Shown piece after piece: positions 56,723 to 61,971 of a stretch of 64,000 nucleotides of DNA; position 1 is the stretch's first letter; each line of letters begins with the position of its first letter. The stretch is from Gemmatimonadaceae bacterium (lineage in GTDB: Bacteria; Gemmatimonadota; Gemmatimonadetes; Gemmatimonadales; Gemmatimonadaceae). The DNA lies in contig JAUQWM010000046.1 in assembly GCA_030835125.1 (NCBI GenBank), positions 1 to 64,000 on the forward strand. Reading direction: 5' to 3'. Under the pieces are notes generated by a model. That model did no database searches and had not been told where the DNA came from. It saw only the letters and a list, made by a program, of their open reading frames with translations. The position numbers and the translations under genes were made by a program.

Positions 56723-57994
56723 ATGCACACCTACTCCAGGTTCGTTCCGGGCGATGGGGACGCCGTCGACCTCGAGGCCCTCCTCGAGCAGATGGCCGAC
56801 TTCCTGCTCCAGTCCGGCTTTGCCGGCGGGCCGATGTCGCACCCCTGGTGGGGGGAGACCGGTGAGGAGGCCGACCACTCCCTCGAGGCCCTCAAGCGCG
56901 CGATCCTCCAGGCGCTGATCGACAGCGGCCAGTTCACCCCCGAGCTGCTGGACGCGATGCGCGGCGGCGGAGACGCGGAATCCGAGGCGACGCTCTCGGC
57001 ACTCCTCGACCAGCTCGTGCAACGCCTGGTCGACCAGGGCTACCTCTCGGTGCAGGCGCCGCCACGCGTGGCCGACGGGTACCAGCCCCTCGAGGGACGC
57101 GGCGGGCTCGCGCAGGCCGCCTCGCGCGACGTGCAGTTCCGCCTCAACGAGAAGGGCATCGACTTCCTCGGCTACAAGGCGCTCCGCCACATCCTCGGAT
57201 CGTTAGGCAGGAGCAGCGTCGGGAGCCACGACACGCCGTACCTCGCCACCGGCGTCGAGGCCGACGGCGCGAGCAAGGCCTATGCGTTCGGCGACACGCT
57301 GAACCTCGACGTCAACGCCACCCTCACCCGGGCGCTCGCCCGCACCGGCTCCCTCGGGTTCCCGCTCGACCTCGACTACCCCGACCTGATGGTCCATCAG
57401 GCGGAGTTCCGGTCGTCGTGCGCGACGGTCCTGCTGCTCGACACCTCCCACTCGATGATCCTGTACGGCGAGGACCGCTTCACGCCGGCCAAGAAGGTGG
57501 CGCTCGCGCTCACGCACCTCATCCGCACCCAGTATCCGGGCGACACGATCCGGGTAGTGCTCTTTCACGACTCCGCCGAGGAAATCCCGCTGGCCACGCT
57601 GGCCCAGGCCCAGGTGGGGCCGTACCACACGAACACGGCCGAGGGACTGCGCCTCGCGCGACGCATCCTGCTCGCGCAGCGGAAGGACATGCGCCAGATC
57701 GTCATGATCACCGACGGCAAGCCGAGCGCGCTCACGATGCCGGGCGGCGCGATCTACCGGAACGCGATGGGACTCGACGACGAAGTCATCAGCGCGACGC
57801 TGCGCGAGGTGGCCGAGTGCCGGCGCTCGGGCATCGTGATCAACACCTTCATGCTCGCACGCGACCGGGCCCTCGTGCAGTTCGTGAAGCGCGTGGCGGC
57901 GCTGAGCCGCGGCAAGGCGTACTTCACCAACACCATGACTCTGGGACAGTTCATCCTCATGGACTTCCTGCGCCGGAAGACAATGCGATCGTGA
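56723..57994 (+). CDS. VWA-domain protein, likely partner of the MoxR-like ATPase
   Basis: A 423-aa protein. The N-terminal ~200 residues are helical and acidic. The C-terminal VWA domain has the MIDAS motif DTSHSM near residue 240, then [16 protein letters not shown], the conserved threonine region [15 protein letters not shown] and [11 protein letters not shown] proteins of this group bind the MoxR ATPase and present clients to it. It is followed by a spacer of 236 bases with the riboswitch of the hom operon. Pairing with the ATPase at 52706 is inferred from the common MoxR-VWA association. Confidence 0.88.
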
Positions 57995-58051
57995 CGGTAA
58001 CGTCCGCGGCACGCGGAGCTGTCGCTTCCCGATTCCCGACTTCGACTCCCC

Positions 58052-58080
58052 TTGCGCAGTGAAGACGAGCGCGATACCGT
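58052..58080 (+). promoter_or_regulatory. Probable promoter of the riboswitch-controlled hom operon
   Basis: TTGCGC (58052-58057), a 17-base spacer and TACCGT (58075-58080). It would start transcription near 58087, a few bases before the aptamer. The match to consensus is moderate. Confidence 0.5.
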
Positions 58081-58097
58081 AGGATTCACAATCGAAC

Positions 58098-58151
58098 TTC
58101 GTGGTCATTTGCGGCGTATTGCGGCCACGTAAAACAAACGCTAAAAAGCCA
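58098..58151 (+). promoter_or_regulatory. SAM-II-type (SAM_alpha) S-adenosylmethionine riboswitch aptamer
   Basis: P1 is CGTGGTC (58100-58106) with GGCCACG (58123-58129), seven pairs including one G-U. The enclosed loop carries ATTT and then CGTATTGC (58115-58122). After P1 comes a TAAA-containing linker and GCTAAAAAG (58140-58148). These conserved blocks appear in the order and spacing of the SAM-II aptamer as I know it. The pseudoknot P2 is supported by covariation: the CC/GG pairing of the classic aptamer is GGC (58113-58115) with GCC (58148-58150) here. The location directly before homoserine dehydrogenase is typical for methionine-pathway SAM-II riboswitches. Confidence 0.85.
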
Positions 58152-58154
58152 CTT

Positions 58155-58185
58155 GTCCCGGGGCTTTTCGCCATCCGGGACTTTT
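58155..58185 (+). terminator. Riboswitch expression platform: terminator with competing antiterminator
   Basis: GTCCCGG (58155-58161) pairs with CCGGGAC (58175-58181) followed by TTTT. A competing pairing joins AAAAGCC (58144-58150, part of the aptamer) with GGCTTTT (58162-58168), whose loop contains the terminator's left arm. SAM binding would hold AAAAAGCC in the pseudoknot, free the terminator and stop transcription. The model is inferred from these pairings. Confidence 0.72.
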
Positions 58186-58230
58186 GCGTCCCTGGGTGAC
58201 GAGACCCGGGGTGGGTGGGGGAGAACGGAC

Positions 58231-59199
58231 ATGGCTCCACCCATCGTGCGCCTCGGCCTCATCGGCTGTGGCACCGTCGGATCGGCGTTCGCCGAGCAGT
58301 TGCTCGCTCGGGAACCACAACTCGCCGGGCGCATCGGCGCCCGGATCCACCTTGCCCGCGTCGCCGTGCGCGACGCCCTCAAGTCGCGGCCGGTGCCGCG
58401 CCGGCTCGTGACCACCGACGCCGGCGACCTCGCCGCCGATCCGGACATCGACGTCGTCGTCGAAGCCAGCGGCGCGGCGCCTTCGCCGGGGTGGATCTGC
58501 GCCGCGCTCGGCCGCGGCGCGTGCGTCGTCACCGCCGGCAAGCAGGCGGTCGCCAGGACGCCGGCACTCCTCGAACGACTCGTCAGGCGGGACCAGCGCC
58601 TCTGGTGCGAGGGCGCCGTGGCGGCCGGCGTGCCGGTGGTCCGTGCCCTGCGCGAGTCACTGGCCGGGGAGGAGATCCACTCGATCCGCGGCGTTTTGAA
58701 CGGCACCAGCACGTACCTGCTCACCCGCATCGAAGCCGGCGCAACGATCGACGCGGCGCTGGCGGAGGCACGGGCGCTGGGGTTCGCCGAGGCCGATGCC
58801 CGCGCCGACCTCGATGGCTCGGACGCCGCGGCGAAGCTCGCCATCCTCGGCACGCTGGCGTGGAGGGCACCGCTGCTGGTGGACCACGTCTCGGTGACGG
58901 GCATCGATGCCGTCCTGCCACTGGCCAGGGAAGGCGGCTGGCGGCTGGTGGCGACGGCGATCCGCGAGGGCGACCGGGTGCGCGCGATCGTGCGGCCCGA
59001 GCGCCTGCATCCCGGCGATCCGCTCGCGTCGGCCAGCGGCGTGCTGAACGTCGTCGAGGTACGCGCGGCACTCGCCGGCGTGCTGACGTGGAGCGGCGCC
59101 GGGGCCGGCGGCGCGGCCACGGCGTCGGCGGTGCTCGGCGACACGCTGTCCGCGGCCCGCCAGGCCCTGCGACGGATGCGGGCGAGGGTCGCGGCATGA
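58231..59199 (+). CDS. hom: Homoserine dehydrogenase, short form without ACT domain
   Basis: A 322-aa protein. ATG 58231 has GGGGGAGA upstream and begins the NAD(P) fold (RLGLIGCGTVGSAFAEQLL). Other family motifs are VVVEASGAAPS, the catalytic region VVTAGKQAVA, EGAVAAGVPVVRALRESLAG, GVLNGTSTYLLTRIE and AEADARADLDGSDAAAKLAIL. It reduces aspartate semialdehyde to homoserine, the branch point to threonine and methionine. The C-terminal ACT regulatory domain of many homologues (~430 aa) is missing, so allosteric threonine control is probably replaced by SAM control through the upstream riboswitch. Its stop overlaps the thrC start (ATGA). Confidence 0.95.
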   Translation: MAPPIVRLGLIGCGTVGSAFAEQLLAREPQLAGRIGARIHLARVAVRDALKSRPVPRRLVTTDAGDLAADPDIDVVVEASGAAPSPGWICAALGRGACVVTAGKQAVARTPALLERLVRRDQRLWCEGAVAAGVPVVRALRESLAGEEIHSIRGVLNGTSTYLLTRIEAGATIDAALAEARALGFAEADARADLDGSDAAAKLAILGTLAWRAPLLVDHVSVTGIDAVLPLAREGGWRLVATAIREGDRVRAIVRPERLHPGDPLASASGVLNVVEVRAALAGVLTWSGAGAGGAATASAVLGDTLSAARQALRRMRARVAA

Positions 59200-60455
59200 C
59201 GGCGACCGCCCCCCGCGCCGCGGTCACGCTAACGCCGCACCCGCTCCGCTGCGCCGCCTGCGACCAGCCGCACGACGCCGCGCCCACGCACGTGTGCCCA
59301 TCCTGCCTCGGGCCGCTCGAGCCTCGTTATGACCCGCGGCGATTCCTGCCCGACCGCGCCGAGATCTCGGCGAGGCCGCGATCCCTCTGGCGGTACCGCG
59401 AGTGGCTGCCGTTCACGGGGCGTCCGGCCCGCTGCCTGACCGCCGGCTGGACGCCGTTGGTCGACGCGCCCCGCCTGGCGTCGGCGTTAGGCGTGGCGCG
59501 GTGCGTGGTCAAGCACGACGCCGGGTCCTTCCCGTCGCTGAGCTTCAAGGACCGGGTCGTCGCCACGGCGCTGAACGCTGCCCACGCCTTCGGGCTGCCC
59601 GTGGTCGGCTGCGCCTCGACCGGCAACCTGGCCAACGCCCTCGCCGCCGCCGCCGCGCGCGAGGGACTCGATGCCTGGATCTTCATCCCCCACGACCTGG
59701 AGCCCGCCAAGGTGGCAGCGACCACCGTGTTCGGCCCGCGGCTGGTGCGCGTCCGCGGGACGTATGACGACGTGAACCGGCTCTGCGCGCAGGTCGCGGA
59801 TCGCTTCGGCTGGGGGATCGTGAACGTGAACCTGCGCCCGTACTACGGCGAGGGCTCGAAGACGATGGCGTTCGAGATCGCCGAGCAGCTTGGCTGGCGG
59901 CTGCCGGACACGGTGGTCGCGCCGATGGCGGGCGGATCGCTCGTGACGAAACTGGCGAAGGGGTTCGGCGAGTTCCTCGATGCGGGACTGGTGCATGGCG
60001 TGCCGCCGCGACTGTTCGGCGCCCAGGCGGCCGGGTGCGCGCCGATCGTGCGGCTGGTGCATCGCGGGGACGACACGCTGGTCCCGGAGCGCCCGGCGAC
60101 GATCGCGAAGTCCCTGGCGATCGGGAATCCCGCCGACGGGCGGTACGCGGCGCGGGCCATCCGCTCGTCAGGCGGCTGGGCCGCGGCGGTGGACGACCCC
60201 GCGATCGTCGAGGGCATCCGGTTGCTGGCGGAGACGTGCGGGATCTTCGGGGAGACCGCGGCGGGCGTGACCGTCGCCGCCGCGCGCCAGCTCGCGAAGG
60301 ATGGTCACCTCACGCCGGATGACGAGGTGGTGCTCTGCATCACCGGTCACGGGCTGAAGACCGTGGACGTCGTGGCTGGCGACGTGCGCATCCCCGACCC
60401 AATCGCGCCAAGGCTGTCCGAAGTCTCCGCCCTCGTGTCCGCCAATGGGGCCTGA
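59196..60455 (+). CDS. thrC: Threonine synthase-like PLP enzyme with N-terminal zinc ribbon
   Basis: A 419-aa protein. Residues 1-50 carry a zinc ribbon (LRCAACDQPH, then VCPSCLG). The fold-type II PLP domain has the lysine motif SLSFKDRVV near residue 116, the phosphate-binding CASTGNLANALAAAA and the glycine-rich MAGGSLVTK. Threonine synthase makes threonine from O-phosphohomoserine. Coupling with hom supports that. However, the next genes encode a sulfur carrier and its activating enzyme, and the operon is under a SAM riboswitch. A sulfhydrylase-type reaction (homocysteine or cysteine from a protein thiocarboxylate) is therefore a real alternative. No homoserine kinase gene is in the window. 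The stop codon lies inside a copy of the 21-bp palindrome. Confidence 0.85.
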   Translation: MTATAPRAAVTLTPHPLRCAACDQPHDAAPTHVCPSCLGPLEPRYDPRRFLPDRAEISARPRSLWRYREWLPFTGRPARCLTAGWTPLVDAPRLASALGVARCVVKHDAGSFPSLSFKDRVVATALNAAHAFGLPVVGCASTGNLANALAAAAAREGLDAWIFIPHDLEPAKVAATTVFGPRLVRVRGTYDDVNRLCAQVADRFGWGIVNVNLRPYYGEGSKTMAFEIAEQLGWRLPDTVVAPMAGGSLVTKLAKGFGEFLDAGLVHGVPPRLFGAQAAGCAPIVRLVHRGDDTLVPERPATIAKSLAIGNPADGRYAARAIRSSGGWAAAVDDPAIVEGIRLLAETCGIFGETAAGVTVAAARQLAKDGHLTPDDEVVLCITGHGLKTVDVVAGDVRIPDPIAPRLSEVSALVSANGA

Positions 60456-60521: not shown

Positions 60522-60791
60522 ATGCGCATCAACCTTCCCTCGGTGCTGACCCCGCTCGCCGGCGGTCACCATACGCTCGACGCCACAGGAGACACCGTTG
60601 GCCAGGCGATCGACGACATCGCGCGACGATTCCCGGCGCTCTCACCGCGCCTCCGCGACTCACACGGCGCGCCCTACCCCTTCGTGACCATCTACCTCAA
60701 CGATGAGGACATCCGGTTCCTCGGCGGATTCGAGACGCCGGTCCGGCCGTCGGACGAACTGTCGGTCGTGCCGGCCGTGGCGGGAGGCTGA
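60522..60791 (+). CDS. ThiS/MoaD-family ubiquitin-like sulfur carrier protein
   Basis: An 89-aa beta-grasp protein (MRINLPSVLTPLAGGHHTLD; VGQAIDDIARRFPALSPRL; VTIYLNDEDIRFL; DELSVVPAVAGG). It ends in the Gly-Gly tail required for adenylation and thiocarboxylation. Carriers of this class serve molybdopterin, thiamine, cysteine (CysO) or homocysteine (HcyS) synthesis. Here it lies between a PLP enzyme and a MoeZ-type E1, one base before the latter, matching the CysO/MoeZ partnership of actinobacteria. No molybdopterin or thiamine genes are near. Translation may be unusual because a heptamer array occupies the ribosome-binding region. Confidence 0.9.
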   Translation: MRINLPSVLTPLAGGHHTLDATGDTVGQAIDDIARRFPALSPRLRDSHGAPYPFVTIYLNDEDIRFLGGFETPVRPSDELSVVPAVAGG

Positions 60792-60792
60792 C

Positions 60793-61971
60793 ATGACGGC
60801 GACATCCCCCGGATCCACGGTCGCCGTCGACTTCGCGCCTGACGAGTACCTGCGCTACAGCCGCCACCTCATCCTCCCCGAGATCGGGCTCGACGGGCAG
60901 CGCGCCCTCCGGCGGGCGCGGGTGCTGCTCGTGGGTGCGGGCGGCCTCGGGTCGCCGGCGGCGTTGTACCTCGCCGCCGCCGGCGTCGGCACGCTCGGCC
61001 TGGTGGACTTCGATGCGGTCGATGTGTCCAACCTCCAGCGCCAGATCCTCCACGGCACCAGGGACATCGGCCGGTTGAAGATCGACTCGGCCCGCGACCG
61101 CCTCGCCGACATCAACCCGGGCGTCCACGTCGAGTCGTTCCCGGTCCGCCTGACCGCCGCCAACGCCCGGGAGATCGCGACCGGCTTCGACCTCATACTC
61201 GACGGGACCGACACCTTCGCCACCCGCTATCTCGTCAACGACCTCTGCGTCCTGCTCGGCGCGCCTAACGTGTACGGCAGCATCTTCCGGTTCGACGGCC
61301 AGGCCTCCGTCTTCGCTGCGGCGGACGGACCGTGCTACCGATGCCTCTACCCCGCGCCGCCCCCGGCCGGCCTGGTCCCCGCCTGTGCCGAAGGCGGTGT
61401 GCTCGGCGTGCTCCCCGGCCTGGTGGGTACGATCCAGGCCACCGAGGCCATCAAGCTCATCACCGGTGCCGGAACACCGCTGGTCGGACGCCTGCTGCTG
61501 GTCGACGCACTCCACTGGCGCGTCCGCACCGTGCGTGTCCAGCGCGACCCCGCGTGCCCGGCCTGCGGAACGCGCGCGATCCGCGACCTCACGGATGCGG
61601 AGCAGCTGTGCGCGGTCCCGGTGCCTGACGAGCTGGATGCGGCGTTCGGGGCCGTCCCGGACATCGAACCGGTCGCGCTGGCGGAACGACTCCGGTCAGG
61701 CCACCCGATCGACCTCATTGACGTGCGCGAGCCTCACGAGTGGGAGATCGCGCGGATCGAGGGCGCCCACCTGATCCCGCTGGCCTCGCTCGAGTCCCGA
61801 TTCCACGAACTGTCCCCCGATCGTGACATCGTCGTGCACTGCAAGGTCGGCGGCCGCAGCGCCCAGGCCGCGCGACGCCTGCGGGCGGCGGGGTTCCGCC
61901 ATGTCTGGAACCTGGCCGGCGGCATCCAGCGCTGGAGCCGGGAGGTGGATCCAGGCGTGCCGGAGTACTGA
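60793..61971 (+). CDS. moeZ: E1-like sulfur-carrier adenylyltransferase with rhodanese domain (MoeZ/MoeBR type)
   Basis: A 392-aa two-domain protein. The E1/ThiF domain (residues 1-250) has YSRHLILPEIG, the nucleotide motif LLVGAGGLGSPAALYLA, DVSNLQRQIL, a zinc-type cysteine pair in YRCLYP and CPACG, and the catalytic cysteine in VPACAEGG near 196. The C-terminal rhodanese (about 295-392) has DVREPHEWEIARI and the persulfide cysteine in HCKVGGRS near 350. It adenylates the C-terminal glycine of the carrier encoded next door and loads sulfur from its own persulfide. One base separates it from the carrier gene. The product of this pair is a protein thiocarboxylate. Confidence 0.93.
   Translation: MTATSPGSTVAVDFAPDEYLRYSRHLILPEIGLDGQRALRRARVLLVGAGGLGSPAALYLAAAGVGTLGLVDFDAVDVSNLQRQILHGTRDIGRLKIDSARDRLADINPGVHVESFPVRLTAANAREIATGFDLILDGTDTFATRYLVNDLCVLLGAPNVYGSIFRFDGQASVFAAADGPCYRCLYPAPPPAGLVPACAEGGVLGVLPGLVGTIQATEAIKLITGAGTPLVGRLLLVDALHWRVRTVRVQRDPACPACGTRAIRDLTDAEQLCAVPVPDELDAAFGAVPDIEPVALAERLRSGHPIDLIDVREPHEWEIARIEGAHLIPLASLESRFHELSPDRDIVVHCKVGGRSAQAARRLRAAGFRHVWNLAGGIQRWSREVDPGVPEY

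Follow-up and report, generated by a model that had tools for sequence, protein, structure and literature searches.

How does a Gemmatimonadaceae bacterium control hom, the gene for its homoserine dehydrogenase? The leader of this gene lies in the window (the whole stretch of DNA analysed here, 64,000 nt, from a draft genome of 4.48 Mb), and a first-pass annotation had read it as a SAM-II-type riboswitch followed by a terminator and an antiterminator. Our results indicate that a SAM-II riboswitch is present and that it very probably acts on the hom-thrC operon through transcription attenuation; SAM binding, the direction of regulation and the kinetic competition between the RNA folds are predictions of this model.

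The SAM-II aptamer in the hom leader

The leader matches the covariance model of SAM-II with an E-value of 2.2e-5 when the 64 kb window is compared with all Rfam families, and this is the sole family above threshold in the window. The promoter, the aptamer and the downstream genes are arranged as follows.

58052-58057, + strand: -35-like hexamer TTGCGC, 17 nt from the -10-like hexamer
58075-58080, + strand: weak -10-like hexamer TACCGT; TAGAAT, TAGACT or GATACT in the same register of orthologs
58091-58165, + strand: SAM-II (SAM_alpha, RF00521) riboswitch, covariance-model match of 39.4 bits, gathering cut-off 36
58100-58104 with 58125-58129, + strand: P1 stem, CGTGG with CCACG, from the RF00521 alignment and the sequence
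58113-58115, + strand: 5' strand GGC of pseudoknot P2, pairing with GCC 58148-58150
58140-58150, + strand: GCTAAAAAGCC, the conserved SAM-II core with the pseudoknot 3' strand GCC (58148-58150)
58217-58223, + strand: Shine-Dalgarno sequence GGGGGAG of hom, 7 nt upstream of the ATG
58231-59199, + strand: hom, homoserine dehydrogenase of 322 aa (PF00742, 149 bits; NF004976, 263.7 bits, cut-off 205)
59196-60455, + strand: thrC-like threonine synthase (TIGR00260, 242.3 bits, cut-off 167.1)

When the sequence from 57700 to 58700 was read, P1, the loop, the core and the GGC-GCC pseudoknot pair were all found where the first-pass annotation had placed them. P1 has 5-6 pairs, and CGTATTGC and GCTAAAAAG both occur in the leader, with the conserved loop (ATTTG, TTGC) and the GCTAAA core recovered in the RF00521 alignment. 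GTATTGC (58116-58122) directly follows the P2 5' strand, and the two pseudoknot strands adjoin GTATTGC and GCTAAAAA. In leader L058 the pseudoknot is CGC/GCG in the same register, whereas GTATTGC and GCTAAAAAG are otherwise identical. On sequence grounds, the element is a genuine SAM-II riboswitch, a well-supported addition to the known class, for which SAM binding is predicted.

SAM-V shares a related pseudoknot architecture with SAM-II, and the architecture of the SAM-II long-loop family (RF01726) is likewise related to that of the hom-leader aptamer. With permissive settings and the leader alone, RF01726 reached 22.1 bits (cut-off 44), SAM-V (RF01826) did not match at any E-value up to 1, and both were rejected; of the two models that the first-pass annotation had proposed for this search, SAM_alpha is the one above its cut-off.

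The gene context is that of methionine and SAM metabolism: hom here, metH behind a second SAM-II copy elsewhere in the same genome (41.7 bits), and metH, metF and metY in the phylum. The downstream gene had been correctly named as homoserine dehydrogenase and is the single Homoserine_dh match in the genome. Its stop codon overlaps the start codon of the thrC-like gene (ATGA, 59196-59199), and a MoeZ/MoeB-type adenylyltransferase with a rhodanese domain follows hom-thrC at 60703-61971. Upstream, the arrangement TTG[CA][CG][CA]-N17-hexamer followed by CA[CT]AAYYGAA is kept in 11/11 hom leaders, and the transcript probably starts at about 58087 (CACAATCGAA).

The 5' strand of P1 can also pair elsewhere, its GTGG (58101-58104) being complementary to CCAC (58149-58152) after the pseudoknot. 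This pairing is used in the ligand-free minimum-energy fold and could, in that model, destabilise the empty aptamer.

Terminator and antiterminator

Two mutually exclusive structures, one of which uses a strand of the aptamer, follow from the sequence between the core and hom.

58155-58161 with 58175-58181, + strand: intrinsic terminator, GTCCCGG with CCGGGAC, upper stem GGC/GCC at 58162-58164/58170-58172, T-tract at 58182-58185
58144-58150 with 58162-58168, + strand: antiterminator, AAAAGCC with GGCTTTT, 7 Watson-Crick pairs

The terminator hairpin with TTTT that the first-pass annotation had described is present at 58155-58181, with a computed energy of -16.5 kcal/mol, and the upper GGC/GCC stem is an addition to that description. 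The T-tract of the window copy is short (TTTTGCG), and most orthologs have a stronger one of T5-T9. The hairpin is conserved in 10/10 orthologous hom leaders. A simple generic terminator scan missed it, as the loop limit of 8 and the T-tract rule of that scan exclude such a hairpin. In a dedicated scan with dinucleotide shuffles, in which a terminator-like hairpin was defined by dG <= -10 kcal/mol plus a T-tract, 115/122 SAM-II leaders of the phylum were positive, compared with 146/488 shuffles (30%).

The aptamer strand AAAAGCC is exactly complementary to the upper 5' arm of the terminator, GGCTTTT, so that the alternative pairing previously noticed is real, and compensatory changes preserve it in the leaders of hom orthologs. 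In leaders L103 and L151, AAAACGC/GCGTTTT takes its place. Several orthologs have an antiterminator of just 4 Watson-Crick pairs. Among SAM-II leaders, the Watson-Crick run with the leader's own terminator averages 4.18, against 3.73 (sd 0.07) with permuted partners (0/300 permutations), and the energy is -5.61 against -5.15 (sd 0.12). This conservation across leaders, in the frequency of the hairpins as well as in the excess of the own match over permuted ones, excludes a chance origin of the terminator and antiterminator.

Stepwise folding gave the antiterminator a pair probability of 0.84 with the transcript end at 58169 and 0.31 at 58174, falling to 0 once the 3' arm of the terminator had emerged. 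With the aptamer strand blocked, as a mimic of SAM, the antiterminator was absent and the terminator formed unopposed. Equilibrium folding, in an energy model that cannot represent the pseudoknot or SAM, favoured the terminator for transcripts ending at 58181-58194, whether or not the SAM-like constraint was applied. Since the terminator is favoured in both states, the switch would have to be kinetic, with the antiterminator trapped or the polymerase pausing.

The following sequence of events is proposed. When SAM is plentiful, the aptamer pseudoknot would close (GGC 58113-58115 with GCC 58148-58150), AAAAGCC would be occupied, and the central GGC (58162-58164) would be free for GCC (58170-58172); the terminator would then form and halt the polymerase around 58182-58185. 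Under SAM scarcity, the strand AAAAGCC would capture GGCTTTT (58162-58168) as it emerges, the terminator would be delayed and the polymerase would read through into hom-thrC. The second copy before metH, a gene of the expected kind, and the conserved promoter directly upstream support this model, and the same termination logic has been reported for SAM-II (PMC1273637, PMC2258182, PMC9373788). The logic set out in the first-pass annotation is thus backed by computation and comparative conservation, the response to SAM itself being predicted. Control of the sole hom by SAM would also throttle the supply of threonine, so that complete shut-off of hom by SAM is unlikely.

The read-through leader and rival explanations

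After read-through, the leader would refold into a long rod made of two helices (A:D and B:C), in which the terminator and the antiterminator are both gone and the ribosome site is left just past the rod.

58149-58162 with 58205-58218, + strand: outer helix A:D, CCACTTGTCCCGGG with CCCGGGGTGGGTGG, 14 pairs, adjoining the Shine-Dalgarno sequence
58177-58181 with 58188-58192, + strand: inner helix B:C, GGGAC with GTCCC, the T-tract of the terminator in its loop

Strand CCACTTGTCCCGGG starts right after the pseudoknot, and both helices exclude the terminator. The A:D helix was examined by a fixed-register pair count in 11 leaders and by an ungapped helix search with shuffles in 119. In the former, 111/121 cells are paired in the 11 hom leaders, against 105.3 (sd 2.0) in permutations (p 0.002), which is good and non-final evidence, as the register was picked after the sequences had been viewed and the leaders are few and related; the MAFFT alignment of the leaders, being non-structural, was left out of the pair counts. 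Double-sided changes occur at several pairs, with CCAC/GTGG replaced by CCAT/ATGG in L053 and a C-G replaced by T-A near the end of the helix in L052. In the helix search, the window ranks first among the 119 leaders with a score of 24, the best of 595 shuffles being 21, and the next six helices all come from the same group of hom leaders, each scoring beyond the 99th shuffle percentile. A cross-duplex test of A:D had scored non-cognate pairs equal to cognate ones, being distorted by high GC and by a wrong GCTAAA in some leaders, and was superseded by the pair count and the helix search.

For 9/11 hom leaders, the rod, B:C included, is the predicted minimum-energy fold of the region after the aptamer, and B:C has a pair probability of 0.94 at transcript end 58220. 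At the same end, A:D reaches 0.65-0.90 in the folding model, irrespective of the SAM constraint. Since the rod forms in either case, it is probably a constant structure of the read-through mRNA rather than a sensor. Conservation of CCAC (58149-58152) for invasion of P1 through GTGG (58101-58104) was considered as a separate reason; the CCAT of L053 fits the ATGG of segment D and not P1. This sequence favours the rod as the reason for the conservation, although both may hold. A bolder and tentative reading, which we consider possible but doubtful, is that, within a single Gemmatimonadaceae clade, the hom leaders are a three-state SAM-II platform, in which a terminator and an antiterminator are joined by a conserved read-through rod that dissolves the terminator once the polymerase is past it, sequesters the U-tract in a loop and sets how accessible the ribosome site is. 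If true, SAM control of the only homoserine dehydrogenase would gain a further layer, acting after termination and at the level of translation.

The position of the rod also bears on whether SAM-II might act mainly on translation here, SAM or the A:D rod altering access to the Shine-Dalgarno sequence GGGGGAG, with the hairpin incidental or constitutive. The A:D helix ends directly before this site and its conservation includes compensatory changes; in certain metH leaders of the phylum (L009, L017), the terminator is missing and the start codon comes immediately after the pseudoknot strand; and a translational action has been put forward for S. meliloti metA (PMC9373788). Direct occlusion is nevertheless impossible, since some 67 nt separate the pseudoknot from the Shine-Dalgarno sequence downstream of it, the helix is modelled whether the SAM constraint is applied or not, and the terminator hairpin is kept in all 10 orthologs. 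We therefore regard a mainly translational switch as unlikely.

It is more improbable still that the terminator is constitutive, independent of SAM, and just reduces the expression of hom or gives rise to a small RNA, while the aptamer has no effect on it. The equilibrium preference for the terminator in both states would agree with this, as would the small RNAs released from S. meliloti SAM-II leaders, where no SAM response was predicted for one terminator (PMC9373788); yet the complementarity and covariation between the pseudoknot 3' strand and the upper 5' arm of the terminator would be purposeless without a switch. Attenuation in response to SAM remains the preferred reading of the locus.

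SAM-II in Gemmatimonadota and in known systems

SAM-II is widespread in the phylum, with an RF00521 match at E<=0.001 in 262/395 Gemmatimonadota genomes, 221 of them above the cut-off, and in 0/14 control genomes. Its presence outside Alphaproteobacteria is therefore the rule in Gemmatimonadota and no oddity of one genome. A chance resemblance without a functional riboswitch can be dismissed for the hom leader, since a score just 3.4 bits over the curated cut-off is outweighed by the recurrence of the element at this position in 10 orthologous leaders, by the second copy before metH and by two thirds of the phylum's genomes being positive.

The first-pass annotation had considered a SAM-II copy with transcriptional control notable in this organism, which overstates the case. 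Corbino (2005; PMC1273637) described SAM-II in alpha-Proteobacteria, with a few copies in other Proteobacteria and Bacteroides, and found upstream promoters, and putative terminators behind many aptamers. Barrick and Breaker (2007; PMC2258182) reported that SAM-II, in alpha/beta-Proteobacteria, is associated with terminators more often than other classes, and Leyn et al. (2014; PMC4239095) listed hom among the SAM_alpha targets of Hyphomonadaceae. The hom leader resembles the Agrobacterium metA type (PMC1273637) in P1, pseudoknot P2, the TTGC and GCTAAA cores, a promoter just upstream, a terminator between P2 and the reading frame, and a methionine-pathway gene downstream; it differs from that type and from RF00521 in its Gemmatimonadota host, its GGC/GCC pseudoknot and a loop 3 nt shorter than in the Rfam model. 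S. meliloti metZ likewise has a SAM-II aptamer with a Rho-independent terminator behind it, for which transcription termination upon SAM binding is predicted (PMC9373788), whereas the target here is hom-thrC; the rod was found in hom leaders, within an analysis that covered Gemmatimonadota. The Hyphomonadaceae hom-metXC operon (PMC4239095) also has SAM-II upstream of hom, but in another phylum and with metXC in place of thrC.

Taken as a whole, this is an ordinary riboswitch of modest novelty, and its proposed mechanism is not unusual. A search of the open literature for SAM-II or SAM riboswitches together with Gemmatimonas or Gemmatimonadetes returned nothing relevant, and matches may already be contained in Rfam scans made by others; within that literature, we found no prior description of phylum-wide SAM-II use or of the long rod, specific to one clade, that the read-through leader can form. 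The analysis settles the probable regulation of the enzyme at the methionine/threonine branch point for a poorly studied phylum, and indicates that SAM-II is a main SAM sensor in Gemmatimonadota rather than an alphaproteobacterial speciality. Both the rod, which is conserved, and panB, an unusual target, lend themselves to concrete tests.

When downstream reading frames were clustered, metH was the main SAM-II target (57 of 119 leaders), followed by groups of hom or hom-fused proteins, metF and metY, these counts being approximate as some clusters hold wrong-frame reading frames. In the metH leaders L009 and L017, and also in L008, L012 and L015, the ATG immediately follows the pseudoknot strand (GCTAAAACGCCAGGATG) and there is no terminator before the gene. 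L009 and L017 are among the leaders that failed the terminator scan, and leaders of this type are, judging from their sequence, likely translational SAM-II riboswitches acting by direct occlusion.

SAM-II with terminator-like hairpins also lies 52-134 nt before panB (ketopantoate hydroxymethyltransferase) in L003, L011, L023, L026, L030 and L097, the identity of the gene being given by PF02548 at >300 bits in four and by the NCBIfam panB model in L023. No SAM riboswitch is known to us from a pantothenate gene, and a literature search by title showed none. SAM-II further precedes threonine-synthase-like PALP genes in L118, L127 and L136, and L118 carries a related rod helix, CCTCGC/GCGAGG, just upstream of the ribosome site.
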